From Gracilariopsis chorda (Eukaryota; Rhodophyta; Florideophyceae; Gracilariales; Gracilariaceae): a DNA stretch of 64,000 nt. Both the position numbers and the translations under genes were made by a program. The stretch lies in contig NBIV01000037.1 of the NCBI GenBank assembly GCA_003194525.1, positions 248,001 through 312,000 of the forward strand, written 5' to 3'. A model generated the notes under the pieces. The model ran no database searches, had not been told where the DNA came from, and saw only the letters and a program-made list of their open reading frames with translations. Shown here piece after piece: positions 10,915 to 41,100 of the stretch (its first letter is position 1; each line of letters starts with the position of its first letter).

Positions 10915-11738
10915 TGTGGTGCAATGCCCCAAAGGGAAAAAACACCGAAAGACGTTCGGGATCTTCCTCCCACGAGGTGAACCCAGTTGGGTAGAGCCCT
11001 CCCAGGGGTGTCACGGCGAAGCCGGTTGTAAGACCAGGGACACCTGTCGCGACTCGCGCAGGGAGGTGAAGGCGAAGAATTGGTATCTGCGTGAGTGGGG
11101 TGTGATCCTCAGTAGAGGTATGTTTCCACGTAAGTGGGGGTGTGTGAGCGGATGCGCACACGAGGGCCGCGGATAGCGGGAGGTGCTACCCTAAAAAGGG
11201 GGAAAAGGAAGGGCGAAGAGGAGGAAGAGAGGACGAAGTGAGTCGCCAGAGCGACGGGGGCGAACGGCGATGCCGGTAACAATATACCTATACAGGGCGA
11301 AACACCAATGCAATTGGAATAATATGACTCCCAAGGATGGGCCTCTTTAGATGTGCAAGGGGGTTAGATGTCCCGTGGTTTACGGCGTTTCCCTCCAAGG
11401 AGGAGTAGAGTACGCGCGCAAGCGGCAACAATTAGAGCCAATTCCCCAGGTTGGGGTCTCTTTTTGGGGAAGGTTTACTGGTGCGACGGCAGTGCGCCGT
11501 TGCACTAAGTACTAGCTTCCCAGAAATGGGTGTGAAAATAATAAATAATATTAACTAAAATACTCCACATTTCGTGGCAACATCTACTACTGTGGCCAAC
11601 CGCCAATTGACCGAAAACCGTGTCCCACGTGTCCATACCCACCATTGTGAGGCGTAGTTCATACACACACTACACAACCGATAATATCGGGAAAACGATC
11701 AAGTACCTAGAATCCCTCCCTGAGGGCGTTGCACTTCA
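10915..11738 (-). repeat. 3' LTR of element 1
   Basis: 824 bp, matching 21515-22341 throughout, with divergence concentrated near 11240-11330. Like the rest of the element it is packed with short hairpins such as CCCAGTTGGG and CCACGTAAGTGG. Confidence 0.93.
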
Positions 11739-11793: not shown

Positions 11794-13581
11794 ATGGGTT
11801 ATAAAAGCGCGTACGCCGTCTCTGGTTCTCCGGTAAATCCCTCTGCATCAGAGTCACCAAGCGCACAAACGACAACAACAGCCACCCTCGACAACGGAGA
11901 AATGAACGACGACAACAACATCAACAACCACAGCCAACCTCCGAGGCTTCTCGGGCGATACACCACCGGATTCCGGTCAGTTCCCCTGCCTCAGGGCGAT
12001 CGACATCCGGTACAACCGGGGAATATGGCTGCTGCAGCCGACCATCCCTTCGCACTACCACCTTCGGTGGTGTCCTCCGGAACCACTCCGGCGTTCAATT
12101 GGCCAACCTACAACACCCTGGTGGGGCTCAACCCGAAGAATCGGAATCACGCGTCGCGCTTGCGCCTTGCCCCGTGGTTCCACCCGGTCGCTGTCCTCAA
12201 TGAGGGATTGGTCACCGCTTATTCGGATGGCTCAGACACCCTTCCGGGGGATCTGCCCAGAGCAGTCACCACATCGTGGGATTGGCGTCACCGGATTGCG
12301 ATTCCGCGTCACCACCTCCGAAGAAATTCGGGCGAGACCGTCGCTGCAGCGCAGACCGCGTTGACGCGCATGGCGTACCAACGGCAGAGCCGGGCTCCAT
12401 TCGATGTACCGGTCCCACCGGAGTTTGGATTCGACGTTAGCTACTTCCGCACTCGCGGGGAGATTGGGTACGGCGAGAACCTGTTCCGCCTCGAGACCCT
12501 CGCTTGGAGGAATTTCCCCGCAGCGCGGCAAGAAGCCCTTTGCTCGGAGCGACCGATCATTCGGGCGGAGTTCAGGTACCTTCCCCGGCAATACCGGTCC
12601 AACTTTCTCCAAAACTTCATCCGCTACTAGCGGCGTTGGCGATCCCGATTCTGGTATTTCATCCCGTATCAGAACGTGGAGATAGAGCGGATTGCGCCGC
12701 CTCACCGACTAGGTCGGTATGTAGCACTCCCCGAGTGGTGGCGCTTCCATGACGCCTGCCGGGGGTGCTACATAGAACTCCCGCCGGTACTTACGTACCT
12801 CGGTTCGCTGCTCATGCAGGATCCCCGGTCGGGGTTGTGGTCCGTAGTGGTTACGGAGTGGGCGGCCCGCAGTGCGGCTTATATCCTCAACGAGGCGTAC
12901 GACCAGTATCGTCTCTGGTTCCTTCAACCGCGTGTGCGGGCAGCGATCCGAAACCTGGATCTTCGCATCCCCCTTGGGGGCCAGGCCAACAATGAAGAGG
13001 TCCTCCAATTACTTGGGTACATCGACAGCGTTAGCTGGAGTGAGGTCCCGCTGGAGCAAAGCGGGCGTCTGGATGGCGGCAGCGGTAACACCGGTGGCCC
13101 GGGACTTGGTAGAAACACCGCCCTTGCGGGGGATTTTATCTACTTCGACCCCTGGGAGTTCCGGGAAATTTCCTCCGAGGAGGCGCGCGAGCTTCGCGAT
13201 ACGCCCCGGCATGTGCCCGAAGACCACCCGGTGGGGTACGTCGATTCCGACGACTACTACCGCGCATACGGCGGGGATGACCCAATGGTCGATAACGAAC
13301 CGGAAGAACCCGGGGAGATGGACGTAGAGGAAACCGGCGCTAGCGCGGAAGCTTTCCCAGAGGCGGTATCTCCGGCCGAGCCGGCTGCTGACCCTTCGGT
13401 GGCAAGTGCCGGACCTTCTATCCCCAGCGGGGTGACGGCGAATGAAAACGAGATCATCGCACGTTTTCTCCGGGGTGCCGGTCTTAGCGCTGCCGAGGTA
13501 TCGGGGGATGTCACCACCATGGCGGACGCGTTGGCCTACCGCCTTGCTGGGGGTTACGCCCCGGACGATGGGGGTGAGTGA
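11794..13581 (+). pseudogene. Antisense accessory ORF of element 1 (unknown protein, one stop)
   Basis: Lies opposite to gag-pol, between pol and the 3' LTR. The ATG at 11794 is 55 bp from the LTR edge. A single in-frame TAG at 12628-12630 splits it into 278 and about 316 codons; both halves stay in one frame. The protein is collinear with the intact product of element 2: Asn/Ser-rich N-terminus, then RLAPWFH, VTTSWDWR, RPIIRAEFRY, FIPYQNVE, ACRGCYIELPP, GLWSVVVTEWA and YDQYRLWF, an acidic middle, and a C-terminal helix region with the shared tetrapeptide SGDV. AATAAA follows 87 bp after the stop. I recognise no known domain and do not assign a function. Confidence 0.8.
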
Positions 13582-13668: not shown

Positions 13669-13674
13669 AATAAA
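13669..13674 (+). terminator. Poly(A) signal AATAAA for the antisense ORF (element 1)
   Basis: AATAAA in the 190-bp gap between the convergent stop codons of the antisense ORF and pol. A signal at the equivalent place exists in element 2. Confidence 0.6.
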
Positions 13675-21511: not shown

Positions 21512-21514
21512 CTT

Positions 21515-22341
21515 TGTGGTGCAATGCCCCAAAGGGAAAAAACACCGAAAGACGTTCGGGATCTTCCTCTCACGAGGTGAACCCAGTTGGGTAGAGCCCT
21601 CCCAGAGGTGTCACGGCGAAGCCGGTTTGTAAGACCAGGGACACCTGTCGCGACTCGCGCAGGGAGGTGAAGGCGAAGAATCGGTATCCGCGTGAGCGGG
21701 GTGTGATCCTCAGTAGAGGTATGTTTCCACGTAAGTGGGGGTGTGTGAGCGGATGCGCAAACGAGGGCCGCGGATAGCGGGAGGTGCTACCCTAAAAAGG
21801 GGGAAAAGGAAGGGCGTAGAGGAGGAAGAGAGGACGATGTGAGTCGCGAGAGCGACGAACAGATACGGCAATGCCGGTGGACAAGACTCCCGATACAGAG
21901 CGAAACAATAATATGATTGGAACAATTATACTCCCAAGGATGGGCTTCTTTAGATGTGCAAGGGGGTTAGATGTCCCGTGGTTTACGGCGTTTCCCTCCA
22001 AGGAGGAGTAGAGTACGCGCGCAAGCGGCAACAACTAGAGCCAATTCCCCAGGTTGGGGTCCCTTGTTGGGGAAGGTTTACTGGTGCGACGGCAGTGCGC
22101 CGTCGCACTAAGTACTAGCTTCCCAGAAATGGGTGTGAAAATAATAAATAATATTAACGAAAATACTCCACATTTCGTGGCAACATCCACTACTGTGGCC
22201 CACCGCCAATTGACCCAAAACCGTTTCCCACGTGTCCATACCCACCATTGTGGGGCGTAGTTCATACACACACTACACAACCGATAATATCGGGAAAACG
22301 ATCAAGTACCTAGAATCCCTCTTTGAGGGAGTTGCACTTCA
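21515..22341 (-). repeat. 5' LTR of element 1
   Basis: 827 bp, TG...CA ends on both strands, followed on the plus strand by target duplication AAAAC (22342-22346). Confidence 0.93.
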
Positions 22342-22787
22342 AAAACTAACACATTACTAATACAATGATCATGAACCCATCCATTGTAGAACATGTTTTC
22401 AATTACAGTATCTCCGCATTGCTCTAAGAACAGCTTCACACCATCGGCGACACAATAGACATCTGGCAACAGGGAATACTGCGCGGAAATAAAACTTTGG
22501 AAAACCTGTATTTCCTGGCTCGACGGAAGCCTAATCTGTGCCTTGCAATCAGCATGAAGCATTTTTAGCAAGCATCGTCTCCCAAAACGTAAAAACAGGG
22601 AGCATACAGACGACGCTACTCCGAATAATAGGCATAGTAGTATCCTCGATCCTCTAGTACGCGTCCACGCTAAGTTGAGGCCCAAAAATGGTCCAGCATT
22701 CAAGGAACGAGGACGCCCCCTTTTTTGTGTAAATGGGAAGTAAATGTATAAAACCTTTTTTGTCATATGGAGAATACTTGTTATAGA
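22342..22787 (-). pseudogene. DDE transposase, middle fragment
   Basis: 446 bp of host transposon DNA left between the two LTR elements. Minus-strand translation gives GRPRSLNAGPFLGLNLAWTR, then LLKMLHADCKAQIRLPSSQE, then DVYCVADGVKLFLEQC with the first catalytic Asp, then FYNGWVHDHCISNVLVF. It joins in frame to 34440-34709 on one side and to 10433-10914 on the other after removal of the retrotransposons. No stop inside this fragment. Confidence 0.82.
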
Positions 22788-23688
22788 TGAAGTGCAATCC
22801 TCAAGGAGGAAGACTCAGCGATGCCCTGTGGACTTGATGTTTTTGCCGCTTTCGCGTGTTTATGATTACTACCGCTATTAACGGGTGTCTCAGCCCTCAG
22901 CGGATCCGCACTGTGCACCAGGTGCACACCTGTGCATGCGCCGTGTACCGCCCAAGGCGTGAGTGGACCACGTGTGACACGGATAGTCAAGAGGAGGTTG
23001 GCACCACGGTGTGGACATTTATTTAACTTATATTTATTATTTATTATTTATCTACGCTACAGTAGGGAGATTACTACACTATTTAGTGGCTCGGCGACCT
23101 CGCCCTGACACTAAGTAAACTTCCCCACCAGGGTTCTTGGCTCTAAGTCTTTTCCGCTTTCGCGAGTCTTCTACGCTCCTCGGAGGTAAAGCCGCGTTAC
23201 TAACGGTAGACATATCCACCCTGCGTCACTAGGAGTATCACCGCCTTGGGCACTTGTCACTTAATTCACCACCGCCGTGTTCTCGCCCCTGCATAGGGTT
23301 CCTTTGTACCTTTTTCCGTGGTCCCGTTGGCCCACACCCCCGTCGCCCCCAATCGGGCATCCCCCGTATTTCCCTTACCCCACTCTCGTGGTTCCTACCC
23401 CTTTGTGTGGTTGCTCGTCACCGCTGACGCGTGTCTCTCGTGCCGGTATCCCGTGACGTCTTCCCCCACTTACGTGGACTCGTACTCCTTGGAAGGGCTG
23501 TTTTCCCATTCGTGGTGATCCTAATCCTACCGTTTCAACTCTCCCCGCTTGGCGTGAGGGTGAGCCTCGGCTTTACAACCCGACTTCTTCGTGCTCATCC
23601 GGAGAGGCTCAGTTTGCTGTGTTACCCTCCGGAGGGGAAGATTCCGAACGTCTTCGTGTGTTGTCCCGCTTGCGGGTATTGCACTACA
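22788..23688 (+). repeat. 5' LTR of element 2
   Basis: Starts TGAAGTGCAA and ends TTGCACTACA, giving a short terminal inverted repeat. Contains an A/T-rich stretch near 23020-23060. Confidence 0.95.
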
Positions 23689-23691
23689 AAG

Positions 23692-23712
23692 TGGTCTCCC
23701 GACCTAGAATTG
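23692..23712 (+). other. Primer-binding site of element 2
   Basis: After an AAG spacer the sequence reads TGGTCTCCCGACCTAGAATT, matching the element 1 site over 19 bases. Same inferred tRNA primer. Confidence 0.85.
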
Positions 23713-23803
23713 GAAACGGTTAGGTTTTGTCTTACCTCTCCTCGGAGAATCACTGTCCAAACTTTTGGTTTCTTACCACTTCGTGGGAGTTTTTGGTCTA
23801 CAC

Positions 23804-25918
23804 ATGTCTCGGCGACCATCCTCCGCCGAACCCGTTGTCACGCGGAGTCGTTCCGTCAGTGACGTGGAACAGGCAGAGATCTCGAAGGTCTCCGCTGGCC
23901 ACCCTCGACGTGCCACTTTGAAAAGCAAGTCGAAGGGCCAAGACTCGTCGAGAGCCCAGAAACCCCCGCCTAAGGCGTTGAAGGACGCTCCCAACTCTGT
24001 TGTCGACCCGGCTTCTGCAGATGTAGCTGCACCCCGGAGGGGAGACCCCGATACCGACGCCCCCCGTAGTGTCCAAGCGCAGCTGGATGAGGTGCGTGAA
24101 GCACACAATACCCTCGTGGAGGAGTTTGAAGTCCTGCGTGTCAGGTTTGATACCTCTTCTATGAAGGATTTGGCTGAAGACATTCGCCTTTTAAGGGCAG
24201 ATGTCAACACTGTGTTGGAATGTTTTGGTGGCCCTGCCAACTATGTTGAGAATGTGGAAACCCGATTTGATCGTGTCAGTGCCCGTCTGAGGACGTTGGA
24301 GCAAACTATCTTGATGGATGACGACGTGCCGGGTGAGGCCGCTGCTGTCTCGCAAAAAGCGAAGCGCGAGAAAAAAGATTCTACCCGCCGCACTCGTAAG
24401 AAGTAGCCCAAGCACGATCTCGACTCGTCGGAGTCTTCCCTGTCTTCACAGGATTCTCACCATTCTGATGGTTCGGTGTCGTCGGATTCTTCGTCGGACG
24501 ATGATCGTCGCCGACGCCCGTCCCATTCTAAACGGTCTTCTTCCACCCAAGGTGTGATTCGCCCCCGGAGGAAGAGGAGGAAACACTTAGGATTGAGGGA
24601 ACTCAAATGTACGAATCCCCTCTACAAGAGGTTGGTATCGTACCGATATTATCGGCTTGAGGACTCCTCATTGGATCGTACACCCCGTGGTACGGGTACG
24701 GTGAAGGACTGCATAAAGCGTATGCAGCTTTCCCTTCGTAACCAGTCCTTTTCTGGAGAGGATCCCATATTGGTGTTAGACTTCCTCGGAAGGTTCGTTT
24801 CCGAAGCGGACATACTTGGTATGAACGAAGGACAGGCGTTTATTGCCCTACCGTATTTTCTACGTGGCCTCGCCCAGGATCAATACAACTCTGTAAGAGG
24901 TTCTTCCCGAGCCTCCGAAGGAGGTGTAACGTGCTGGCCGGAAGCGATTCAGTACCTCTTGCGATCCTACGCGACGAACAACGCTATTCAAGCGGCTATT
25001 CTCGCTTTACGCGATACCCGCCAGAAATCTGGAGAGACGGAAACCGAATTCTCGGTACGCCTTAATAAGGCTTTCTACAGGTGCGGCAATGTTTACTCCT
25101 CTGGAGAGCGCTGCACCATGTACATCGATGGATTGGATCCGGCAATCCGTACGCTGGTGGCCCGATATCGGGAGGATCGTCGTAACATCACCTACCTGGA
25201 GTTGATTCAACACGCGCAAGCGGAAGGTGATGCACTTCGAGCTCGAATCTCTGCATCGAAGTCTAGTTCCGCCAAGGCGTTGATGATGGAAGCCAGTTCA
25301 CCATCTTTACCGCTAGCAGCGAGTGGACGCCCTTCAAGGGACTACGATAACGTTTACCTCGCTCAGGCCGGTGCTCAGTCTATTCCGACCACGGAACTGC
25401 CGTCCACGACGGATGCGTCCTACGACACAGCTCAGGAGAATTCCCTGCTGTATGTTGACGGACCCCGTGTTCACGGACCTCGCATTCCGTATGCGAATGG
25501 TGCCCTCTGGCAGAGTCGTCCCGGATGGAAGGATACCCGCCCAGCGGTGAGACACACGGATGCTCGTTCCGGTCAGCCGCCGCCACGCTCTGGAGTCATA
25601 TGCCACATATGTTACGAACACGGTCACATTTCACCGGACTGCATCCTCACTTTGAGAGAAGTAACCCGAGTGATCAGTAACTATGAAGCCCTTACTCCAG
25701 CGGAGAAGCAGACCGTTCGGATTGCATCGTACTTACGGGCGAAGACGGACTTCCCCTGGAATATCACGGATACGAACCCGCGACACGCGTTGATTTCCCC
25801 TGCTGAGCAGGTGAATAACCCCCGTCTTGTTCGACAAGACACCCCCGCTAGCGCTCCACTGCTAGTGGTTCAGGATTCTGAGACCCCGCCTCAGGCGGAA
25901 CGGGCTCAAGAAAACTGA
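23804..25918 (+). pseudogene. gag: Gag of element 2 with one premature stop
   Basis: ATG at 23804 (MSRRPSSAEPVVTRSRS, matching element 1). An in-frame TAG at 24404-24406 interrupts the charged N-terminal third. The frame resumes through the capsid region (MNEGQAFIALPYFLRGLAQD) to the CX2CX4HX4C knuckle CHICYEHGHISPDC and ends GAA AAC TGA. No frameshift. Confidence 0.92.
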
Positions 25919-28900
25919 TTTCGGGAGTCTCCCCTACCGGAGAGGGGCCCTCAGAGCTGAGGTTGAACGCGCCCGAGGCGTCACTGCCTCGCTCCCCGGT
26001 CAAAATCCTTACTATGAAACAGGCCGTCTCAGACGTGAACTCTGAACACTTTAGTGTTCTGCGTCGACCGTAGAAACGTGTTCGAAACAACCGGTTCCCG
26101 GACAAAGTTTTGGTAATGGCCAAGAGAAACTACAAGGTATATGCTGACTTTGGCCTTTCCACCCAGTTTATGGTGCGAGCTCTCACTGTTTTGGACACAG
26201 GAGCAGGCCCGAACTTCATCGTTGAGTCGCTCCTGCCACCGTCGTTGCAGTCTCAGATCCGCCATGGCGTGATACCGGATGTCGCGGATGCCAATGATAA
26301 CCCGTTATCAACAGTTGGGACAATCGACCTGGTCGTGCGCCTTGGCTCCTTTCTTGTGAAACTCAACTTTATTGTGTGTCGGAAACTTGCCGCCCCTTTG
26401 ATCTTGGGATGCGACTTCTGTGACAGATTCGTCGATGCCATCAGGCCCCATCTAAGACGTGTGGAAATGGAAGACGGCTCCTCCGTTTCGATCGTACGTC
26501 GTCCTCTACGACGTGCCTCGAAGAAGCACGTTCCATTACCTGCTGCGCAGGAAGCCCCACCGGCTTCCCGGGACTCTACAAAGCTCCGCGTTGCCGCGTC
26601 TGTCCAACTTCCACCGGAATCCCAAGTTTGGGTACGAGTCACTTCCCGTCAACACGGTTTACGAGTAATTCAACCCCTTTCATCCTTATATGATAGGTAT
26701 CAACTCGCCGAGGCGAATGGAGTAGCTCAAATAGAGCCCGATAAACCGTTCAACGCGCTGGTCGCCAATCTAAGCTCTACGCCCCAGTCACTGGTGAAAA
26801 ACCAAGTCATTGGTTCGGTAATGCCCCACCCCACCGCGATGGTTCCCACGATAATGACCGCCACCGATGTCCTCGGTCTCGTTCACTCTAAGGAGGGGGA
26901 GGACACTGCCGTCCAAATGCCGAAATGCTCGGATGCTAAGCCGGTTCCAACGAGTTACGACCGGATTGATCCCGTGAAAGAACTCGAGGAACTTGACCTC
27001 GGTCATGTGCCGGAATCGCACCGTGAACGTCTCCGTGAGATGCTACGGAATTTCACCACGATGTGGGATGGCTCCCTAGGGGAGATTACTACAACGGAGC
27101 ACCGGATTGACTTGCTACCTGATACCAGGCCGATCGCTCAGCACCCCTATAGGGCAGGCCCTAAAGCTCGAGAAGAGGAAGAATTCCAAGTGGATAAGAT
27201 GCTCCGAGCTGGAGTAATAGAACCGGCTCAGTCGCCGTGGGCATCCCCAGTGATACTGGCTCCGAAACCAGATGGATCCTGACGCTTTTGCATCGACTAC
27301 CGTCGACTGAACGCCGTAACCATCAAGGATGTGTACCCGATCCCACGAGTGGATGAGTACATCGATTCACTCGGAAATGCTACCGTTTTCACGGCTCTAG
27401 ACGCCAATTGGGGATACTGGCAGGTGCCTGTCAGGGAACAGGACCGCGACAAGACTGCTTTTGTCTGTCACTCCGGACTCTACCGTTTCAAACGAATGCC
27501 TTTTGGTTTGACCAATGCTCCCGCTACTTTCCAGCGTGCTATCGACATACTACTGGCTCGCTTCAAATGGCGCACATGCCTCGTATACCTGGACGATATC
27601 ATAGTATTCTCAGATAATCTGGATGACCACCTCACAAACGTAAGAGATATCATGACCACGCTACGTGAGGCTGGAGTTACTCTCAAGTTGATGAAATGTG
27701 AGTTCTTTACAGGTACAGTGAAGTATCTGGGCCACATAATCCGCCCTGGGCGTGTGATGATCGAGGAAGCTCGAGTTAAGTCGCTCCGTCAAGCGAAGGA
27801 ACCCGCCATTCAAACGGAACTACGCTCCTTTCTAGGATTAGTCAACGTCTATCGACGGTTTATCCCGAATTGCGCGGATATCTCAGCACCCTTGAACGCA
27901 CTCTTGCGGAAAGGCCAACTACCGAAATTGGAACCCTTTACGTCAGTCGAGACGAAGGCGTTTAACACCCTCAAGGAGGGTGTAACGTCAGCACCGATCT
28001 TATCGTTACCGAAACCCGGACTACCGTTTACCGTAGACACGGATGCTAGTGACTACCAAGTAGGTTGCGCTCTCTTTCAGACAACTCCCGAAGGAGAACG
28101 AACCCCTATTGGGTACTGGTCACACTCACTGAATGTTCACGAGCGGAATTACTCCCTCTCGGAGAAAGAGTGTCTTGCAGTTGTGTGGGCACTCTCCACT
28201 CTCCGCCCCTATCTTATGGGTGTGCACTTCACCGTTTAAACGGATCACTCGTTACGATGGCTCATGACAGTCTCTGAACCGTCAGGCCGCTTAATGCGTT
28301 GGAGGCTCCGCCTTGCGGAGTTCGACTTCGAGGTGATCTACAAGAAGGGCACAAAGAACGCTCAGGCGGACGCGCTGTCGCGTTTACCCACGGATGGTGA
28401 AACTCTACCCGCTGGGGACGAGGACATTCCTTGCTTCGTCCTCAACGGTCGAGAACCGGAGGCCCCGGACCGTGAACCCGATAACTCGGATGAAGAACCG
28501 GAATCGGATGATGAACTGGACGCACTACTCGTCTCGGACGATGCTCAGAAACCCCCACCGGGTAATTTCGTGCCAATACCCCCGGAGGAGATGGTCAGAG
28601 AACAACAAGGTGATCCCTTCTGTACTCAGATTCGCGCCCGACTTAATGGCGGTGCGCAACTCCCTTTCGAGGTGAATGATGTTGGATACCTCGTCAGGAC
28701 GGTTCAAACAACCCCACAGGTAGTGGTACCACATACTCTACAATCTAGAGTGTTGCACTTGTCGCACTATGCGAAACTTGGTGGACATGCCGGTGGACGG
28801 AAACTTTACCTCAGGTTGCGACGGAGTTACTATTGGCCAGCCATGGCTGTGGACTGCTACGCGACTGTGCGGTCATGCACGGAGTGTGCCAAAAACCGGG

Positions 28901-31497
28901 TCAAACTCCGGAAGCACTCAACGAAATTGAAGTTATTTCCAGCACGGGCCCCTCTCGAGTTTGTCGCAATTGACCTCTTGGGACCGCTGCTCACCACAAA
29001 GCGTGCACATAAGTTTTTACTCGTTATCACGGATCGTTTCTCCAAGTTGGTTCGCACCGTACCTTTACGGAAGATATCCGCTTTCGCGGTGGCGCAAGCC
29101 TTCGTCACCCATTGGGTATTTGTCTACGGACCACCGGTTAACATTTTATCCGATAACAGAAAGCAATTCGCATCGCGATTCTTTGAGGACGTGTGTCGGA
29201 TTCTCGATATCAAGAATCTGTTCACAACGACCTACCACCCCCAGTGTAATGGGCAAGTCGAGCGGTTTAACCGAACGCTGTTAGCCTCTCTCCGTTCTTA
29301 TGTTGCTGATCACCCCAAAACATGGGACCTGTACACTGACGCCTTGACGTTTGCGTATAACACACAGGTACACCGTACAACGGGTTTGACTCCATTTGAA
29401 TTGGTACTTTCGCGTCATCCGCCCGCCGTAGCGTTGGAACCCCAGCCTACCCTGGCAAACTTCCCTTCCGTGAAGGATTATCGCCAACGATGGAAAGCGT
29501 GGCTTACGAAGTTAATCCCGGTCACCCGGAGCTCCATGGCACGAGCACAGGCCGCGTAAAAGCGTGATTTTGAATCTCGTGTACAAGGTACAGCACCGCC
29601 AATTACGGAGGGTGACTACGTCTTCGTCCGTAAGGAGCACTGGAACCCTGATAAGGAGAAACGGCATAAGCTCTCACCCGTCGCGGACGGTCCCTACAAG
29701 GTCATATCAGTGGATAACGACACCTTAGTGGTGGAAATGAACGACGCTCATGAGCGGATTTCCCGCGATCGCGTTGTTATGGCACCGCCACCCTCCGTAG
29801 AGGTTGCTTACCAAGATGAGAACCAACACACCCCAGTGGAACAATCCACATCTGTGGTTAACAGGCCTTCTGTGTTGCCACACCCTTCAAGGGGACTCTC
29901 AGATATACCGTCCTCATCGGACGCAGGCCCGAATGGCCTTTCTTCTCTAATGCCACCGCGCGGTGTCTATCCCCGCAGTTTGGGCGCTTCTACCACTCCC
30001 CATGCCGCTCCATCTAAGGAGGGGGAGGAGAACCCTAACTCTCGTCGAGAGACTGAAACTGCTTCGTCGCGTCATGACAACCGTGGTGCACGGACCTCCG
30101 GACACATCGAAAAGGACAATAGTGGACCGAGAGTTCCGTGTACTGACGTGCCATCTTCGCATTTGCGCGCTACAGCTCCCGCTGAACCCTCTCGAGGAAT
30201 TTCTACCGCATCTGCGCCAGATCGCACTCCCCACCGGGATTCTAGTCGTCAAAATGCACCACGCAGTGGGAAGTCTCTCGCCAAAGTGAAATCGTCGCAG
30301 GAAACTAATCGCGTTCGCGATACCGAACCGGCTGTGCCGTCGAGCGTTGATCCGCATTCCGTGGGTGACGGTTCGTCAACAACAGCTACGCTGGATAATG
30401 CAGAGCAGGCCCTCGCGGGATCCTCTGAGCCGACTACACCGGACGTGGTAACTCCTACTGCACGGCAGAACACACCGGCCAGGCCGGGCAAGCACACCGT
30501 ACAAGACGGTAGGAAAACGACCAGCAAGCTGGATTCTGGTTTAGGACCATCGCGCAGTCGCGAACTCACTCCGAGTGTCTCGGTTGATCCCGACAGTGTC
30601 GCCGAAGTCGCACCGGTCACTCTGGAAGGAAAGCACGTCAAAGACGGAAATAATTCGTCGCCGAAGCGAGACAACACACCGGCAGCGCCGTTGCAACCGC
30701 CCTCACGTGAGGAGGCGGAACGCAACATGGCGCGGACAACCCCCGACCATCCGTTGCAAACGACACGTGACCCCGACACCGTACGGACGGCAAAGGCACC
30801 AATTACCGCCCGAGGCGAGTCGACGCGTACTGTACGACGCACCGTGGCGCAACCGACTTCGTCGTCTGAAGCACCCCCGTCAAGACGGATATCTGCACAC
30901 AAACCTGTGGTTCGCGACCCAGATGCTCATCTTTCAGATGCGTTAGAAGCCCCTCAAAGGGTGTCGTCAATAGACGCCCCCTCAAGGAGTGAAGAAAGCG
31001 CGAAGCGGGATACTTTAACCGACAGCAAGGGTCCCGATACGCACCATCAAGTGGTCGACGCAACCGGCCGTGCCGAGGACCTCCAGGCCCGCGAAGCGGA
31101 TGAATCTACCCGGAAACCGGTTGATGACCCCTCTAATGGCATGGAAAGGCAGTACCAAGCCATGCCCCTTCCGGGGAAGACTGTCCAACACCCACCAGTG
31201 GTGGTAAAGCCTGCCGTGCAGGACGCGATAATGCGAACACGGCGAGGCCGGGAAGTCTACAAACAGGAGTTTGTTGTTGACCACATTGTGGAACATTCTT
31301 ACCATCCAGATGGTTACATTCAGTACCGCGTAGGCTGGTACGGTTTCGGGCCCGAATATGATTCGGATGAGCCGATAGAGCACCTCCCACGTTCGAAAGT
31401 GGTTTCATATCATCGCAGAACGCGAACGGGAATCCCAGCATCGGTGATACACGCCCAGGTGGATAAGCAAGCCACTGCGGTGGAAGGAAGGAAATGA
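25919..31497 (+). pseudogene. pol: Pro-pol of element 2, four premature stops
   Basis: Open -1 frame relative to gag, with the same domain order as element 1: protease (LDTGAGPN), RT with intact FTALDANWGYW and YLDDIIVF, RNase H, integrase, long Ser/Thr/Pro linker, chromodomain. Stops are TAG 26071-26073 (Trp in element 1), TGA 27280-27282 (Trp in element 1), TAA 28237-28239 (Tyr) and TAA 29557-29559 (Tyr), all without frame change. The integrase motif reads LSDNRKQF, with Arg where Gly is usual. The chromodomain has lost its conserved Trp (DSDEP versus DTWEP). The element cannot be autonomous. Confidence 0.93.
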
Positions 31498-31565
31498 AGG
31501 ATCGAGTTGTGGTGTGGAAAGGAAGAAAGGAAAGGAAAGAAGAAGAAACACAAGTCAACTTGGAT

Positions 31566-31571
31566 TTTATT
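31566..31571 (-). terminator. Poly(A) signal AATAAA for the antisense ORF (element 2)
   Basis: Plus strand TTTATT, so AATAAA on the minus strand, 108 bp past the antisense stop codon. Same placement as in element 1, although the flanking sequence differs. Confidence 0.6.
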
Positions 31572-31679
31572 CGATACGATCGATGGAACACCGACTAGTC
31601 CAAGGGCTACACTACGTCATAAGGTTGCACCCCCATGGTGAGGGAACACGCCCCCTTACGGGTTGGAACTGCCCCCACC

Positions 31680-33503
31680 TTAGTGGTTATTTCCCTGGAG
31701 TCGGGCTATCAGAGCATCCCGCATCGCGGTGACATCGCCACTGGCCTCGTTACCTCCCAGCCCCACTTGGCGGAGGAACTGAGAGATCACGGCAGCCTGA
31801 CCCGCAGGGGCCACGTTCGCCTCACCTGGCGTAGAGGACCGACCAGTGGGAAGACCGACCGACGGATTGGACGGCTGACTCGCAGGGGCGACTCCGGGAA
31901 CATCCATACCATATGGTTCTCCATCTGCCCCGGCGTGACCGGCACCTTCGTTGGGCTCGTTGTCGAACATCGGATCCTCACCGTCGTAGACGTTGTAGTA
32001 CTCATCGGCGTCAACAAAACCGGTCGGATGCCCCTCGGGGATATATCTCGGTGCAAACCGGAGCTCGTTTGCTTCCTCCGCGGAGATCTCATGCCCCTCA
32101 CAAGGGTTGAAGTAGATGAAGTCACCCGCGAGCGGAGTTCGAAGCCCTGGCGACAGGTCCTGTATCCGGCTACCGGCAGTACGCCCACTCTGCTCTAGAG
32201 GAACCGAAGCCCAGTCAACCTGGTCGATGAAATCGAGGAGCCCCGCTACTTCGTCAGCGTTTGCCTCACCACCTAGTGGGATTCGTAAGTCCAGCGCTCG
32301 GATGGCGGCACGGACCCGCAACGGGATGAACCACAGTCTGTACTGGTCATAAACCTCCCAGAGGATGAAAGCCGCTGTGCGGACCGCCCATTCGGTGACC
32401 ACCACGCACCAGAGCCCGGACTGAGGATCCTCAATGAGGTATGAGCCGTAATACGTGATCACGGGAGGCAACTCGATGTAGCAACCTCGGCACGCTTCGA
32501 GATGCGACCACCACGGTGGAATCGGAACGTACCGACCCCGTCGGTTGACCACGCGGATGCGTTCGACTTCTACGTTCTGATACGGAATCAAATACCCGAA
32601 TCGGGACCGTGCTCGCTGCTCAAAGCGTATCATCGACAAGAAGTTGGCCCTCGCTAAGCGACGCATATAGCGGAATTCAGCCCGAATGATCGGTCGTGTC
32701 CAGCACACCGCGTCTTGGCGCGCCGCAGGAATGCTTCTCCACAAGAGTGGTTCCAAACCCGCGAGGCGGTCGAGGTACCTCATTTCACCTTGGGTGCGAT
32801 ACAATCCGATGTCGGAGCCCATACCATCGGGGATGGGATACTCAAAGGGAGCCCGGCGAAGCCGTTGATGAGCGAGTAAGACCAACGCCGCGTGCGCGGA
32901 AGCTGCTGATTCCCGACCCCGTCGGATTACCGTGTGCACGGGTATCGCTACGCGATTGCGCCAATCCCACGAAGTGGTCACGATTGCCGGAACGTCACCC
33001 GGGAACATTCCGTTTCCATCGGTATACATCGCCAGAAGCGCATCATTCAACACCGCAGTCGCGTGGAACCACGGGGCCAGCCGGAGAGTCATCGCATGTT
33101 GCGAAGGCTGCAGCCCAACCAGCATGTCGTACGACGGCCACGCTGCCATTAGATACCCTCCCTTGGGAGCCGCACTCGCATTTGCGCCTGTTTGTTGCGA
33201 AGGAGTCGAGAGACCGCTCTGCGGTAGAGGCACGGATTGAAATCCGGAGAAGTACTGTAACGGTGTGTTGCTGCCGGCGTTGCTGTTGTTGTTGCCCTTG
33301 TTGTTGTTGTTGTTCATCGTAGATGAAGGAAGCCGAGTAATCGGAGAAGAAGGCCGCGAAAGCGTACGTGTTGTTGGAAGAACCTCGGAAGAGTTGGTTG
33401 CAGATTCGCTGTTCGCAGCTAGGTGCTCGTTACCCAGAGTGGGATGGAGAACCGGCGAGCCGGACTTACATTTAAGGACCTTTCCCGGTGCTTCCGTCGC
33501 CAT
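31680..33503 (-). CDS. Antisense accessory protein of element 2, intact, unknown function
   Basis: 607 residues from the ATG at 33503, only 35 bp from the 3' LTR, on the strand opposite to gag-pol. Its promoter must therefore lie in the 3' LTR read backwards. Order: Ser/Thr-rich head, poly-Asn segment (near 33265-33320 in DNA), then a dense aromatic region with LRLAPWFHATAVLNDALL, VVTTSWDWRNRVAIPV, RPIIRAEFRYM, YLIPYQNVEVERI, CRGCYIELPPVITYYGSYL, LWCVVVTEWAV and LDLRIPLGG. An acidic Pro-rich part follows, then a C-terminal segment containing SGDVTAM. There is no signal peptide or clear membrane span. It is intact although gag and pol carry stops, and it aligns along its whole length with the element 1 copy. 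No known family recognised. Confidence 0.85.
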   Translation of the reverse strand: MATEAPGKVLKCKSGSPVLHPTLGNEHLAANSESATNSSEVLPTTRTLSRPSSPITRLPSSTMNNNNNKGNNNSNAGSNTPLQYFSGFQSVPLPQSGLSTPSQQTGANASAAPKGGYLMAAWPSYDMLVGLQPSQHAMTLRLAPWFHATAVLNDALLAMYTDGNGMFPGDVPAIVTTSWDWRNRVAIPVHTVIRRGRESAASAHAALVLLAHQRLRRAPFEYPIPDGMGSDIGLYRTQGEMRYLDRLAGLEPLLWRSIPAARQDAVCWTRPIIRAEFRYMRRLARANFLSMIRFEQRARSRFGYLIPYQNVEVERIRVVNRRGRYVPIPPWWSHLEACRGCYIELPPVITYYGSYLIEDPQSGLWCVVVTEWAVRTAAFILWEVYDQYRLWFIPLRVRAAIRALDLRIPLGGEANADEVAGLLDFIDQVDWASVPLEQSGRTAGSRIQDLSPGLRTPLAGDFIYFNPCEGHEISAEEANELRFAPRYIPEGHPTGFVDADEYYNVYDGEDPMFDNEPNEGAGHAGADGEPYGMDVPGVAPASQPSNPSVGLPTGRSSTPGEANVAPAGQAAVISQFLRQVGLGGNEASGDVTAMRDALIARLQGNNH

Positions 33504-33526
33504 CGTGGATGTCGTATTCACACCTC

Positions 33527-33538
33527 AGGAGGGGGATA
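33527..33538 (+). other. Polypurine tract of element 2
   Basis: AGGAGGGGGATA directly before the 3' LTR. Confidence 0.85.
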
Positions 33539-34439
33539 TGAAGTGCAATCCTCAAGGAGGAAGACTCAGCGATGCCCTATGGACTTGATGTTTTTGCCGC
33601 TTTCGCGTGTTTATGATTACTACCGCTATTAACGGGTGTCTCAGCCCTCAGCGGATCCGCACTGTGCACCAGGTGCACACCTGTGCATGCGCCGTGTACC
33701 GCCCAAGGCGTGAGTGGACCACGTGTGACACGGATAGTCAAGAGGAGGTTGGCACCACGGTGTGGACATTTATTTAACTTATATTTATTATTTATTATTT
33801 ATCTACGCTACAGTAGGGAGATTACTACACTATTTAGTGGCTCGGCGACCTCGCCCTGACACTAAGTAAACTTCCCCACCAGGGTTCTTGGCTCTAAGTC
33901 TTTTCCGCTTTCGCGAGTCTTCTACGCTCCTCGGAGGTAAAGCCGCGTTACTAACGGTAGACATATCCACCCTGTGTCACTAGAAGTATCACCGCCTTGG
34001 GCACTTGTCACTTAATTCACCACCGCCGTGTTCTCGCCCCTGTATAGGGTTCCTTTGTACCTTTTTCCGTTGTCTCGTTGGCCCACACCCCCGTCGTTCC
34101 CAATCGAGCATCCCCCGTATTTTCCTTACCCCACTCTCGTGGTTCCTACCCCTTTGTGTGGTTGCTCGTCACCGCTGACGCTTGTCTCTCGTGCCGGTAT
34201 CCCGTGACGCCTTCACCAACTTACGTGGACTCGTACTCCTTGGAAGGGCTGTTTTCCCATTCGTGGTGATCCTAATCCTACCGTTTCAACTCTCCCTGCT
34301 TGGCGTGAGGCTGAGCCTCGGCTTTACAACCCGACTTCTTCGTGCTCATCCGGAGAGACTCCGTTTGCTGTGTTACCCTCCAGAGGGGAAGATTCCGAAC
34401 ATCTTCGTGTGTTGTCCCGCTTGCGGGTATTGCACTACA
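33539..34439 (+). repeat. 3' LTR of element 2
   Basis: 901 bp, collinear with the 5' LTR without length change. Most differences between the copies are C/T or G/A transitions. Confidence 0.95.
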
Positions 34440-34709
34440 ATAGATGTTAGAGAACTTTGGGAGAATATAGTAAAACATTTTGTAATCAAAGCCTGTCAAA
34501 GTTATCATGGACCTCTCGCATTTAGAATTGAAAAGAAATGAAAACGGAGACATAGTCGGAGACTATAGAGCTCTTCTGGTTATGTGGCGATCTCTCCGCC
34601 GGCGACCTTGTTGGTTTAGGCGATTTTGGATGTTGGCTTTGTTGTTAGCATCAACAAGTCTTCTTCTTCTTAGTTTGGTAAGAATAAGAAGTGTGATACC
34701 CTGTGACAT
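34440..34709 (-). pseudogene. DDE transposase, N-terminal fragment
   Basis: First piece of the split transposase. The ATG at 34709 is followed by a basic stretch (RRRRLVDANNKANIQNRL), an in-frame TAG at 34563-34565, then SMITLTGFDYKMFYYILPKF and a segment that runs in frame across the ATAGA duplication into 22787. The helical N-terminus before the DDE fold is typical of PIF/Harbinger transposases. Confidence 0.75.
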
Positions 34710-34893
34710 TGGATGGAGTATAATCGTTAGGCCTCGGGTAAGCAACGTATTATGAATTGATACGAAGCCCCACAGAACTCGAAGCTCTTGGATATTACAT
34801 TGCGGCGATGGAGGGTTTGCGTTTGGTGTCACTGCATTTCCGTAGCCATGATGGTCATTTTATGTACAAAGCACCTAAAATACGTCAGCACAA

Positions 34894-34916
34894 ATTTGTG
34901 TTTTCAGGAGCGCCCC
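34894..34916 (-). repeat. Right terminal inverted repeat of the DNA transposon
   Basis: Reverse complement starts GGGGCGCTCCTGAAAACACA. AGT follows at 34917-34919. Confidence 0.87.
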
Positions 34917-35123
34917 AGTATTCCATTTCGCTTTTTATTAAAATCATTCTTTTGTTCTCCGCACAAACACGTAGATGATCGTATCCAGCTTGTGCGAACA
35001 CCGCAAACCGCTCCAACACACAAGTGCACCACCTTTACCTCTGCACATCTTTCGTGTTGCTGCACCAACCATGCTTTGGTCCTACCACAATCGTCCCAAT
35101 CCCCCCACAGCTTGAGCAAAACC

Positions 35124-37115
35124 ATGCCCCGTCCCCGTCGTCGTCGCGGTATTCTCAATGCCTTACGTCTGCTCGAAACGGGCCACATGTCTCGCCACGC
35201 CTTTCAGAAAGCGCTCTACTCCGCCCTCGTGCCCAGTTCAACTTTCATCAAAGTGCAGTCCGTTCCCGTCGTGAATTTCCGTCGCTTCACTCCTTGCGGC
35301 CAGTATCTCATAGCATTTGAGCAGAACATGCGCGATCTGGCCGTATTTCGCCTCGAGCCCGGCGGCAGAAAAGCGCCCCCCTTCGCTCCGAAATACTCTC
35401 AACATCCCGTCGATTATGAAGCCTCTGCCTTTCCTCTCGCCTCTCATAAAATGGAGCACGACTACTCCACCATTTTGGCACAACCCGACATCCACCCTGG
35501 CACCCATCCCCCGCACCACCTGTTTGCTGTACGACCCCAGCGAGCCAGCGGCTTACTTTCGGCGATAACTGTTCCGCTTGCACCTGTACCACAGCCTAAC
35601 AGACAACCAACTCAAGCAACATCCACTCCCAAGTACAGCTGCCACTTTGAGAGGTTCTTCACTCATATGTATACAATGCCGATTGCAAGCGGCGGCGAAA
35701 CCATAGTCTCAGATTTGTCAATATGCACTACCAGTGGTCGATACCTCATCTTGGCCACGTACGAGCTATCGCAACAAGCGCCCATTGCAGAGCAGCCTCA
35801 ACTTCCTTTGCCAGCCATTGTGTGGGTTGTATCTATGCACATTACTTTTCACCTGGTCGAGGTTGCATCTGGTACGATTGTCGATCGCTTCGTTTTGAAG
35901 AATGATAACATTGATATGGCGGCACATGTTGGAGTGCATTTTTACGCTGATATGCTTTGCGTTTTGTCGACGAGGCATCAGTTGTTGCATATTATCAGGG
36001 TTGAAGAGGCCATGGGTCGCTTCACTGAAGAGAGATGTATAGGCGATATGTGCAATCGTGAAGACGATTTGGTCATTGCGCGCGCTAGAGAGGCTGAGAA
36101 CGAACACATTGCTCGACACGGACAACGGACTGAAAGGGGCGGTGGCACCCAGAGAGAGCAGGATGAAAACGCTCCAGATCACGCGTCACAAGATGAAGAT
36201 GGTGAAGAAGCTGATAATGAAGACGCTCCGGCAGTGCCCAAAGAAAGGGGGTTAGGAAACGGAAAACTGCAGAACCGGTTTTACACGGGCTTGATGCACA
36301 GGTTGTTGGTGTATGTGTATCGCTGTATGGTATCTGAAGGAAACGCGTCGTCGTTTAACCGCATGATGGGGAATTTTACCTTGCTGATCATGCAGAAAGC
36401 ACAGTTTCTTGACGAGGATCACCTGCTTATCAAGCTAGGATCGTATAGTAATAGAGCGCAGCTTGGAGGAATGACATGCTTTTTTGTGGTGTACTGCATG
36501 TCGAGTAGCCGCATTTTGAATCTATTCGCGAATACGTCTGAGCAATTGTTGCTTACGTTTCAGAAGTATCGAGAGGCATTTGTGGCGGATGCTATGGTAA
36601 GTGCGGCGTTACCGCGACCACGGATGAGTGTGGCGCAGGAAGAGGACGGTGTCGTAGAGAGGAGACGACGACGAGAATGGAACCGTGGGGGCAGGGGCGC
36701 GTCATGGTCCAATCACAGCCATCGACAAGGAAGTGAACGCGTTAGACGAACTCAAACCGAACTTGGACACATTCCGGTTTCTAGTCAGACGCGACATTCA
36801 TCGCCATACTTGGACCGGTCGATATTTTCGTATAACGGGGATAAGATTGATGCGCTGACTGGGTGCGGATGGGTTTCCGCGAAGGATGTTAGTAACGTGA
36901 AGTTTATGAGCGCGGAAAGCGGGGAGTTACGTTTTAAGCTTAGCTCTGAGGTTACGCTGTTGGACGAAAATGAGTTCAGACAGGCTGTTGGAGTGGATGT
37001 GGAGGAGTTTGGAAGACGGCGACGAAAGTTTCTGTTTCACCCGATGTTGCCGTTTGTTATGGCGATGGAAAACAATCGACCGGTGAATTTTCACGTGTAC
37101 GGACATGTTGACTGA
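35124..37115 (+). CDS. DET1: DET1 homologue (COP10-DET1-DDB1 complex)
   Basis: 663 residues from the ATG at 35124. DET1 works with DDB1 and an E2 variant in CRL4-type ubiquitin ligases; in plants it represses light responses. Family features: Arg-rich start, HMSRHAFQKALYSALVPSST, then VNFRRFTPCGQYLIAF near residue 52, a central IGDMCNREDDLVI, and a C-terminal domain with FYTGLMHRLLVYVYRCM, FLDEDHLLIKLGS and TCFFVVYCMSSSRILNLF. It is longer than plant and animal DET1 (about 545), mainly through an acidic low-complexity insert (about 320-375) and an Arg-rich one (about 500-550). The frame is open upstream to 34788 but without ATG. A transposon end lies about 205 bp upstream of the start, so promoter elements may come from it. 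Confidence 0.9.
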   Translation: MPRPRRRRGILNALRLLETGHMSRHAFQKALYSALVPSSTFIKVQSVPVVNFRRFTPCGQYLIAFEQNMRDLAVFRLEPGGRKAPPFAPKYSQHPVDYEASAFPLASHKMEHDYSTILAQPDIHPGTHPPHHLFAVRPQRASGLLSAITVPLAPVPQPNRQPTQATSTPKYSCHFERFFTHMYTMPIASGGETIVSDLSICTTSGRYLILATYELSQQAPIAEQPQLPLPAIVWVVSMHITFHLVEVASGTIVDRFVLKNDNIDMAAHVGVHFYADMLCVLSTRHQLLHIIRVEEAMGRFTEERCIGDMCNREDDLVIARAREAENEHIARHGQRTERGGGTQREQDENAPDHASQDEDGEEADNEDAPAVPKERGLGNGKLQNRFYTGLMHRLLVYVYRCMVSEGNASSFNRMMGNFTLLIMQKAQFLDEDHLLIKLGSYSNRAQLGGMTCFFVVYCMSSSRILNLFANTSEQLLLTFQKYREAFVADAMVSAALPRPRMSVAQEEDGVVERRRRREWNRGGRGASWSNHSHRQGSERVRRTQTELGHIPVSSQTRHSSPYLDRSIFSYNGDKIDALTGCGWVSAKDVSNVKFMSAESGELRFKLSSEVTLLDENEFRQAVGVDVEEFGRRRRKFLFHPMLPFVMAMENNRPVNFHVYGHVD

Positions 37116-38154
37116 GGGGTGAGCGTGCTCGAGAGGGCTTGTGATTGCCAACTATATGAAAGCTGTGGGGGTGCGGACGCTGAAGTGGGTGGTGGGATGA
37201 CGGGGCCGGCTTGGGTGGCGGGCGTACTCGTGGGTACATATGGATGGCGGTTGTACTCACAGGTGAAGGGCGGGACATGCCGCAGATATCGGACAGACAA
37301 GGCGAATGGGTATCTAGAGGTGGGAAGAAAGTGCGGGTGTGCTGTGCATTAATGTGACAGACGATATCTAGCTCTATGTAGAAGGGCGCTTATCTTATCC
37401 AGCGGGGTAATGTTGGGTTTGTCTTACGGGGCCGGAGAGTGTTTCTTGCGTGGTTCAAAGCGCAAACTTGAGTTTGTGAGATAGTGCGCTGTTTGAGACG
37501 GGGTGAGGCTGACGGTTTGAATGGACAGCAAACGATTTCAAGTTTGAACAGGGGTTTACCGATTTTGAATCTCCGGGGCGAGATACGAAGCAGGGCGGAC
37601 GTTGTCCAAGTTGACCTTACCGTAACTTTACCCCGGCTTGGTAGACTGCAGACAGTATTGGCATTGAAGTGCGAATGGTCGATGCGGAAGCAGTTGCCGA
37701 AACGGGCTGCTCGTTTTAAAAGCAGTCTGGCAGATGGAACGGGACGTTAAGGCAAGGCTGCGCGCGGCCGGGCGAGGGGGTCGGAACTCGCGGAGCGGCG
37801 TGGGAGGCAGTGCGCCACGCGCGGCTGCCGTTACGGCGCCAATTACGGAGGCGCACGTGTAAGCAGCGTGTGCGCGTCTGCAACGCCATTGGCGCTTCTG
37901 ATCCGCACGTGGCACCGCGCCCCGCTCCACGCGCCGCACAGCCACTCACGGCACACGCCCCCCTCCTCAAAGCCGCCCGCGAAGCTCCGCTGTGCACCGC
38001 GCTGTAGCCATTCGCCCCACATCTTACCCGCTAAGCTGCCGCGCCCGCTTTTGCATCCCTCGGCCCCCCCTCCGTCCTTCCGTCCGCTTCCACGCCATCT
38101 CCCCCGCCCTTGTTCACCTCCGTTCTCCTTGCATCTCTCCCTACCCCTTACACC
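37116..38154. other. Intergenic, DET1 3' region and promoter of the coiled-coil gene
   Basis: About 1 kb without a gene. The right half is GC-rich and contains two E2F-like half sites (GGCGCCAAT at 37835-37843, TTGGCGC at 37889-37895) upstream of the coiled-coil gene. Confidence 0.5.
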
Positions 38155-41100
38155 ATGTCCTCCGGAGCAGGCGGCATTTTACGCTCGCTTAGGCGACACA
38201 AGACCGAGAAAAACGCCTCAGTTCGTCGCACAACCCCCCGAAAACGCCCGTCCAACGAGCAGCTTTCCACCACTTCTACCTTATCCGTAGGCACCGACGA
38301 TGCCGAAGATTCCCCCCAAAAGCATCCGCGCTCCCGCTCAGCCTCCTCCCTGGGCAATGACCCACACGTGCCCACAGCGCTGCCATCCCCATGGCAGGAG
38401 GGAGCCTCCATGTCTACCGACGTCTCAGACTCTTTCAAACGCGCCTTTCAGCAGATGGCCACCGAGCGAGAAGCCCTAAAGGCCCAAGTCCATAATCTGA
38501 AGGCCGCCGCTAAAGAGCCCGACCGTCTGCGAGAACAGTCTGCCACACTCACGGAGCAACTCGACGATGCCACCGCCGCTTTACAGAAGGAGCGGCAACG
38601 TGCCGATTCTGCCGCCAACGCTGTACGCTCTTTGCAGAACTCCCTTGCCGACTTGAAGTCCGAACTCACAGCAAAGACCTCACAGGTCGCAAAGCTGAAC
38701 AAGGAGCTCGAAAACGGCGATCAGAAGAGTGTGAAAGAACTCATGCAGCGTGAAAAGGCTGCAGAAAGTGCCATGTTACGGAAGAGTCGAGAGATCACAG
38801 ACCTCAAAGCTCAGATTAATGCCCTTGAAAACAAACTTAGAAACGCTCGCAATGACTCTATTGGCTTGCAGAAGTCTGTCGATCGCGCGGCGAGGGACGT
38901 CCAAAAATTGCAGGATAGCCTTCGACAGGAGCAGCTCAAAGTAAAGCAGAAGGCTGCTGCGCTTGAGCGCATGGAGACTGTTGCTGCTGAAAGACTTGGC
39001 AGCCTTAACAAGGCAACCGAGCACGTTCAAAAGCTTGAACAGGAGAATGCGCGAGTTCAACGAGAGGTACTGGCTTTGGAGAAAGGCTTGGAAAGCGCAA
39101 AGGGTAAGGGCAGTGACGCCGCCGCTCGAGTATCTGAGTTGGAACGCCAGCTCTGTCTTCGCACTGAGGAAGTCAAGGCAGCCGAAAAAGCTTCAAAGTC
39201 CGCGCAGCAAAGTCTCGAGCAAGCTTCGGAGACGGTCAAGTCGCTCAAAAGCGAACTTGAGGATGCTGAGAAAGCAGCAAAGGAAGCTGAAGACAAGGGT
39301 AAGCATATCGCACGACAGTTATCACAGTCTTCTGATGACGAGCTTGGACATATGAAACGGGAATTGGAACAACTTACAAAGCAGCTGGAAAGAGAAAGAA
39401 GTGCTTTTGAAACGGAGAAAGCTCATATTCAGGCTGCAAAGGTAACTGAGCTAACTCAACTTGAAAACAAGGTTGAGATGGCTAGGTCAGAATATGCCGA
39501 CGCTAAGTGCTCCTATGCTCGCGAGCGCCGTGAACTCACTCATCAGTTGGACCTGGCTCAGAACTCACTTGCTGCAAAGACTAGAGAGGTTAAGAGCCTA
39601 ACAAGCAAAGTGGAAGCGAGTCAGCAGGATGTAGAAGATGCAAACTGGCACCTTGAGCGTGCTCAATCCAAGATGGCAGACTTGAAGGCAGCCACTAAGC
39701 AAGCTGAGGATGAACTCACCAAGGAGATTATGGAATTGCGTGGCAGGCAGATTGAATTGCAGGCGTCTACCAGAGAAGCTGAACGACGCGCGAGACTGGC
39801 CGAGTGCACTACGGAAGACTTTAAGGCTGAAGTGGAAACTCTTGCCCAAAAGCTCGCCACTGCTGATCGTGAGGTTGTCGACTCAAAATCAGCCTTGAGC
39901 AAAGCACTGTCTGCAACAGGAGAAAAGCAGCAGCGAATCGACAGGATCTCCACTGAAAAGGAGAAGCTCGATGTGGAACTGGCTTCTTTGCGTAGGGAAC
40001 ACGAGAGGGCGGTTGAAAACGTCGCGGGAGTCGAACGGAAACGTGATGAGCTTGAACATGAACTCAACAAGGTGAACACTGCTCTCAAGGAATCGCAAAA
40101 ACTATTGGTTGATACGAATGCTCAACTTGACTCGGCGATGGAGGACGCATATACCGCTAAATCCGAACTTCGAGCACGCACGCTTGAACTCGACAAGCGA
40201 AACCGAGATCTAGAAGAGTTCAAAGCTACGGCCAATCAAGCAGAACGTCTTCAAATGCTTGTTGAGGAGCATGAAGGAACCATTCAGCGAATGGACACCG
40301 AACTCTCTGAAAGCGCACAAGAATCGTCAAATATTCAGTCGCGAAGCATCGAAGCTGACCAGCGAATTGCATCCATTTCGGCGGAACTGAAGCAGGTCGA
40401 AGATGAGCGAGCGGAATTAAGCGAACTGGTGCTCACGTTGAGGACTGATCTTTGCCATACTCAGACTGAACGCCAAGAGTTTAAGGAACTTAGCGAGTCA
40501 CTAGAACCGGAGCTGTACAAGTGTCGGGATCAAATCGACTGTCTTGAGGGTGAAAAAGTGCGTTTGCAGAGTCAGATAGAAAGCCTGGAGAAAGAAGCAG
40601 AGGTCGCCGCCCAACGTCGTATTGACCTTGAGAACCGGCATACTGAACTAGAGGCGAATATTTCGTCTCTGGAGGCTGAGAGAGAGAAGCACAATTCGGA
40701 GAAGAACGGCCTGGAAGAAGACATTGACTTCGCAAAGGCAAAGGCTGCGGATTTGCAAGAATCTTTGGAGGAGTCCGTCGGTCATGTCGCGAAACTGGAA
40801 GCTGAACTTCGTTCATCTGAAACAGCATTGCAACATGGCGAGGATCTTCGTATTTCGATGCAAGGTGTGGTGGTAGAGAGAGGAAAACTTATCGAACAAC
40901 TCAAGGATTCTATGCGTGAAGAAGAGAAAACAGTGCAGAATCTTAAGGAAGAACTGACCAAGCTTTCTTCTGAATTGGAAAAACAGAAGAGAACCACTAA
41001 TGACATGACAAGAGAAGTTGAGAACTTGACGACACGAAACGAAGATCTTTGCCGGGACGAAGATGACCTGAAACGCTCTCTTGAGCATTCTCAGAAAGAG

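Follow-up and report, generated by a model that had tools for sequence, protein, structure and literature searches.

Evidence for a selected antisense accessory gene family in Ty3-like retrotransposons of the red alga Gracilariopsis chorda

Antisense accessory genes of LTR elements have been described mainly from flowering plants, with one fungal element and a few retroviruses, and the functions of the plant genes are given as unsettled in the accessible part of PMC7264820. The antisense additional ORFs that lie between pol and the 3' LTR are there called aORF-3R and include gene23 of Grande and the genes of RIRE2, Retand, PvRetro13 and Boty (PMC7264820). The protein of the maize Grande gene, GENE23, is nuclear, and the gene has its own antisense promoter upstream of it (PMC7264820). 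Retand belongs to a non-chromovirus lineage of flowering plants (PMC11963269, in excerpt). HBZ of HTLV-1, a bZIP factor, is made from a transcript that begins within the 3' LTR and carries a polyadenylation signal of its own (PMC3185765, in excerpt). Chromoviruses also occur in red algae, and in the accessible portion of that report the word antisense is absent (PMC3605345). Our literature search, which covered mostly non-subscription papers and is no proof of absence, found no earlier report of an antisense gene in red-algal elements.

In our analysis of a 64,000-nucleotide stretch of the Gracilariopsis chorda genome (the window), we find a real, selected and apparently undescribed accessory gene family in this known kind of arrangement. 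As in the aORF-3R class, the gene codes for a protein, is antisense to gag-pol, lies between pol and the 3' LTR and is present in most copies of its family, the exceptions being insertions without the gene, and it is conserved like other element proteins (class as outlined in PMC7264820). Unlike the aORF-3R genes listed there, it is found in red-algal elements with a chromodomain, is about 600 residues long and has no recognised domain (PMC7264820). The likeness to Grande and Retand that an earlier note on this DNA had proposed holds for position and orientation only. Retand also has an antisense ORF in a long region between pol and the LTR, but it is a non-chromovirus whereas the Gracilariopsis elements have a chromodomain (PMC11963269), and its TRP28 domain (PF04195) gave no match in any of six family members at E values up to 5. 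The Grande GENE23 promoter lies upstream of its gene, whereas the antisense ATG in element 2 of the window is 35 bp from the LTR (PMC7264820). As to homology with the Grande gene23 or RIRE2 antisense protein, our protein searches, which require shared 5-residue words, returned the Gracilariopsis protein alone. The gene resembles that of HTLV-1 HBZ in being an antisense coding gene near the 3' LTR (PMC3185765); an HBZ-like bZIP regulator was considered and rejected, as no bZIP model matches.

Element 2 is an 11.65 kb Ty3 element at 22788-34439 with gag-pol on the forward strand, and is one of two elements in the window with both LTRs (Table 1). Its LTRs align over 22787-23689 and 33538-34440 with 20 mismatches in 903 positions (97.8% identity), and the TG...CA termini set their final ends. 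The hallmarks of Ty3 elements are all present, namely TG...CA LTR ends, a 5-bp target duplication, a polypurine tract and the order RT-RNase H-integrase, and in Pfam the pol of element 2 matches RT, RNase H and integrase. A chromodomain is found at the C end of pol: the Pfam Chromo match of element 1 (E 4e-10) is above the cut-off and that of element 2 (21.5 bits, E 0.00022) is below the curated cut-off of 25.1. From LTR, polypurine tract and domain content, we classify both as Ty3 elements with a chromodomain, putatively of the chromovirus type. The pol frame at 29560-31494 has a low-complexity stretch of several hundred residues from the integrase to the chromodomain-like end, as does that of element 1, and a putative primer-binding site after the 5' LTR (23689-23704; element-1 counterpart near 21501) is common to both families. 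The earlier note had counted five stops in gag and pol. These frames are indeed broken, by four premature stops rather than five, and the gag terminator was probably included in the count.

Table 1. Coordinates in the window of the features of elements 1 and 2
Feature	Coordinates	Strand	Remarks
3' LTR, element 1	10915..11738	-	element on reverse strand; target duplication AAAAC
Homologous antisense gene, element 1	11794..13581	+	broken by in-frame stop at 12628-12630; 55 bp from LTR
AATAAA after antisense gene, element 1	13669..13674	+	87 nt past stop
5' LTR, element 2	22788..23688	+	LTR alignment, TG...CA ends; target duplication ATAGA at 22783-22787
gag frame, element 2	23708..25918	+	one internal stop (24404), terminator at 25916; homologous to element-1 gag; start is frame limit only
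pol frame, element 2	26074..31497	+	RT, RNase H, integrase, chromodomain match below cut-off; internal stops at 27280, 28237 and 29557, terminator at 31495
Stretch missing in six fetched insertions	31543..33344		window-equivalent coordinates; antisense codons 54-607; one insertion has another left end
AATAAA, candidate poly(A) signal of antisense gene, element 2	31566..31571	-	108 nt past stop
Antisense accessory gene, element 2	31680..33503	-	ATG at 33503, stop TAA at 31682-31680, 607 aa
Polypurine tract AGGAGGGGGATA, element 2	33527..33538	+	directly before 3' LTR
3' LTR, element 2	33539..34439	+	LTR alignment, TG...CA ends; presumed site of antisense transcription start
A/T-rich tract	33773..33801	-	270-298 nt upstream of antisense ATG; TATA-like on either strand

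Element 1 (10915-22341, gag-pol on the reverse strand, LTRs 94.2% identical) represents a different family, its proteins being 78% (RT), 74% (integrase), 61% (C part of gag) and 38% (N part of gag) identical to those of element 2. Its homologous antisense gene has the same position and orientation and shares 47% and 55% identity with that of element 2 over its two halves. Copies of the element-1 type (L033, L036, L049 and others) account for at least 131 listed matches to the C half, at 94-100% identity, and many of them are open frames of 609 residues though the window copy is broken. An ORF at 9060-10421 that adjoins element 1 has a DUF6818 match. Host genes recognised by Pfam lie at 955-3680, 34788-37115, 43498-45928, 55349-57139, 59178-60620 and 61396-63903. 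These genes around the elements are Det1, a gene of triose-phosphate transporter type, Rad1, an amino-acid kinase with GNAT, a DHFR-thymidylate synthase, an AAA protein with RZ zinc finger, a MINDY deubiquitinase and TFIIH p62. We had suspected a third retroelement at 34788-42933 but rejected it, since its flanking ORFs belong to the host and 38110-42933 shows weak coiled-coil matches only.

In element 2 the antisense ORF is the sole long frame from the end of pol (31497) to the 3' LTR, and the coordinates first reported for it, for its distance from the LTR and for the AATAAA beyond its stop are confirmed. The true frame is open for 595-638 residues in each of four gene copies, where none of the other five frames exceeds 285. 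The AATAAA stands at the same position in 25 of the 30 fetched copies of the element-2 family (shifted by one base in one, missing in four) and in 27 of 30 of the element-1 family (shifted in one, missing in two), while in a third gene group (L061-L064) it was not seen within 260 nt past the stop at any of the four loci. The signal is thus fixed in place after the stop in two of three gene groups. The antisense strand has nine AATAAA in element 2, six of which are its LTR A/T tract counted twice, and four in element 1; the sense strand has none in either, and since only 1.2 and 1.6 would be expected, this depletion is not significant and was rejected as a signal. Among the listed matches to the antisense gene of the element-2 family, 42 of 67 have an integrase within 5 kb that points at the gene, with a modal spacing of 2,128 bp. 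The other 25 have no listed integrase within 5 kb, and a same-strand integrase within 6 kb was found for none of the 67. This count excluded nine of 76 antisense matches (six of element-1 type, three small fragments) and 39 of 97 integrase matches, all of element-1 type. In the element-2 family the gene therefore opposes the integrase wherever both are listed. The gene is also antisense beyond the chromodomain in L061 and L062, distant kin (54.5% and 56.6%) of the annotated protein BWQ96_03215; for L063 and L064 the flanks fetched end too early to reveal its orientation relative to pol.

The antisense ORF is almost certainly a selected protein gene. Copies were sought in 91.3 Mb of genome on 1,081 contigs, and the samples compared were the best 30 of 76 listed matches of the element-2 type and the best 30 of 131 of the element-1 type, six of the latter being dropped (five frame shifts, one without the expected start). 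Between the families pS is saturated at 0.752, with pN at 0.334 overall and at 0.18-0.25 in the most conserved blocks of a 10-by-10 subset of copies. Within families, pooled pN/pS in the true frame is 0.557 for element 2 (median dN/dS 0.54, a moderate degree of selection, 30 copies) and 0.336 for element 1 (median 0.31, 24 copies). The other five frames give medians of 0.41-1.47, and the low ones among them (0.64 and 0.41) belong to a single reverse frame. The earlier note had named a dN/dS near 1 between copies as the observation that would speak against a gene, and with the medians found the gene is not refuted. Variants shared among copies are more constrained than singletons in both families (0.64 vs 0.82 and 0.42 vs 0.60). 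Nucleotide diversity within families is 0.031-0.036 in the gene, 0.042 in the spacer, 0.039 at the pol end and 0.032 in the LTR. Because the value for the gene is barely under that of the spacer and similar to that of the LTR, we place the main weight on the comparison between families.

For the pair of elements in the window, pN of the antisense gene is 0.34 in the N half and 0.28 in the C half, compared with 0.43 (N) and 0.24 (C) for gag, 0.28 for the chromodomain, 0.12 for RT and 0.15 for integrase. The gene thus falls within the range of gag, near the chromodomain and above RT and integrase. The overall pattern fits selection during replication of the element followed by decay after insertion. 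The intactness of the gene beside a broken gag and pol, first thought special, is ordinary luck of the window copy. In the element-2 family 20 of 38 full-length antisense matches are free of stops, with 28 stops in 38x607 codons, as are 32 of 51 full-length integrase matches (at least 91% identity), with 28 stops in 51x431 codons. From these hand counts the stop density is about 1.2 per thousand codons for the antisense gene and about 1.3 for integrase, in effect the same.

The proteins of three members have 595-617 residues, 66-68 kDa and a pI of 5.2-6.0, and contain 48-56 arginines and only one to five lysines. There is an acidic stretch around residues 400-550, a variable N end and a short conserved C end, and six aligned members all have cysteines at three positions (267, 338 and 341 in element 2). 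The protein is soluble by hydropathy, with no membrane span (highest 19-residue value 1.47). An env-like third ORF was rejected, since the gene is antisense and encodes no membrane span, as was a duplicate of gag, to which no homology is detectable. The antisense protein gave no match above noise in Pfam, none in PHROGs and, with a single-sequence query, none among PDB sequences. The one PDB profile match, to a type III effector chain (E 0.076, residues 35-103) falls in the variable, low-complexity N end and was discounted as chance. Among 5.77 billion proteins, with 8,000 candidates scored, the sole match was BWQ96_03215 of G. chorda itself, and an alignment-based protein search, a method that needs shared 5-residue words and may miss distant kin, again returned this protein only. 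Collections of viral and prokaryote contigs held no relatives of either the antisense protein or pol; metagenome pol proteins with 55-67% identity in the RT region were found, many with a chromodomain. The earlier note had recognised no family in the protein, and as judged from Pfam, PHROGs, PDB sequences and the protein search, the family appears to be without recognised relatives outside the G. chorda genome. BWQ96_03215 is a member of the family and part of its third group (L061-L064). It corresponds to locus L064 (G000:C30:292265-293737), matching contig C30 at 100% over residues 1-491 with its last part in another DNA frame, and has LTR-like sequence on its 5' side. The present annotation, an ordinary hypothetical protein, probably misleads.

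Some insertions lack the gene. In the element-2 family 18 of 58 integrase matches have no listed antisense gene, and five of the 18 were fetched. In one of these, L065, parts of the gene remain on either side of an internal deletion (about codons 262-469), which shows that the listing of antisense copies is incomplete. Codons 54-607 are missing from six insertions, the other four of the five (L066, L067, L070 and L071) together with L068 and L069, the last two found via the junction pattern. The deletion junction lies in an 8-nt purine microhomology and is common to five of the six, L070 differing at the left end and having the same right end. The short copies are unlikely to reflect an intron instead of a deletion, as there is no GT in the left-end microhomology. 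A search with the junction pattern gave nine matches, seven with at most two mismatches, one that is L070 and one (C41) inside the ordinary gene copy L029. Three of the seven close matches, one of which was fetched, are 8.8-8.9 kb apart on contig C3; lying on one strand at about 97,000-115,000 (G000:C3), they look like a tandem array of gene-less elements. The flanks after the LTR are different in all six fetched insertions. The tree built from 33 copies, seven plus 26 of the 30 element-2 loci (the other four being short of a segment), is star-like and the gene-less copies do not group in it. When the five copies with the common junction are forced into one clade the tree is not rejected (AU p 0.167), though such a clade is not supported either. 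L066 and L069 pair with a support of 95 and share three private sites; 4 of the 351 pairs among the other copies attain this number. These two probably owe their deletion to a common ancestor. It would seem from these sequences that either a gene-less copy has transposed again, once or more, or the reverse-transcription jump is a recurrent one. If a gene-less copy did move on, the gene is not needed in cis, and it may act in trans or be dispensable.

We give about an even chance to the reading that a lineage of red-algal Ty3 elements with a chromodomain carries this as an accessory gene and makes from it a trans-acting protein, via an antisense transcript of the 3' LTR region. The distance from the antisense ATG to the LTR, 35 bp in element 2 and 55 bp in element 1, makes a start of the message inside the LTR or at its edge very probable, and transcription from the LTR region as such, judged from position, is in our view reasonably likely. 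The minus-strand transcript would start in or just beside the 3' LTR, run about 2 kb and end near the AATAAA, making gag-pol and the antisense gene convergent units. Like HTLV HBZ or the GENE23 protein of maize Grande, the arginine-rich, lysine-poor protein with its acidic stretch might then target, in trans, the nucleic acid or the transcription of its own element, and so adjust sense expression or some nuclear step instead of taking part in the particle. That it is a trans-acting regulator or nuclear factor is plausible but somewhat short of an even chance; the trans role is drawn by analogy, and the sequence itself does not favour a regulator over another role. A structural or packaging partner of the particle, that is, a second coat or RNA-chaperone protein expressed antisense, would agree with the gag-like rate (pN 0.28-0.34 vs 0.24-0.43) and the arginine-rich core, but the missing gag homology and an antisense expression that uncouples the protein from genomic RNA make it unlikely. 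Another role would be to counter silencing: by the layout, the antisense message would anneal from end to end to a sense genomic RNA, and convergent transcription would give double-stranded RNA over the gene, from which the protein, as a suppressor, would shield the element. We consider this a little less likely again, as Pfam finds no similarity to a known suppressor family.

The remaining alternatives give the protein little or no part in the life of the element. A captured host or foreign gene riding along with little benefit would account for the missing homologue in the searched protein collection and for insertions without the gene, yet purifying selection is seen both between and within families and no copy was recognised outside an element context in genome searches that score the best candidates only, so we regard capture as improbable. 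It is more improbable still that the antisense RNA rather than the protein matters, through antisense or double-stranded RNA regulation. Non-coding antisense RNAs do exist in other elements (PMC7264820, accessible part), but dN/dS and the codon-position pattern indicate selection on a protein. A chance open frame without function might be suspected from a stop density over copies no lower than that of integrase, but it can practically be dismissed, since about 50% protein identity is kept between families at saturated synonymous sites, where a chance frame would lose its reading. Returning to the trans-acting accessory protein, we offer one extension as a doubtful speculation: an antisense promoter in the 3' LTR may yield a new protein family that serves as a shared trans helper, with gene-less derivatives, formed by RT jumps between purine tracts, living off it.

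With a selected gene of about 600 residues, present in a red alga in many copies and several groups, the antisense arrangement now reaches a distant lineage, which points to more than one origin. For annotation, BWQ96_03215 belongs to the gene family of an element. The natural gene-less copies provide a comparison for trans action of such a protein. If the speculation of a shared helper is true, these would be two-strand (ambisense) elements with a helper-parasite economy outside plants, fungi and retroviruses.
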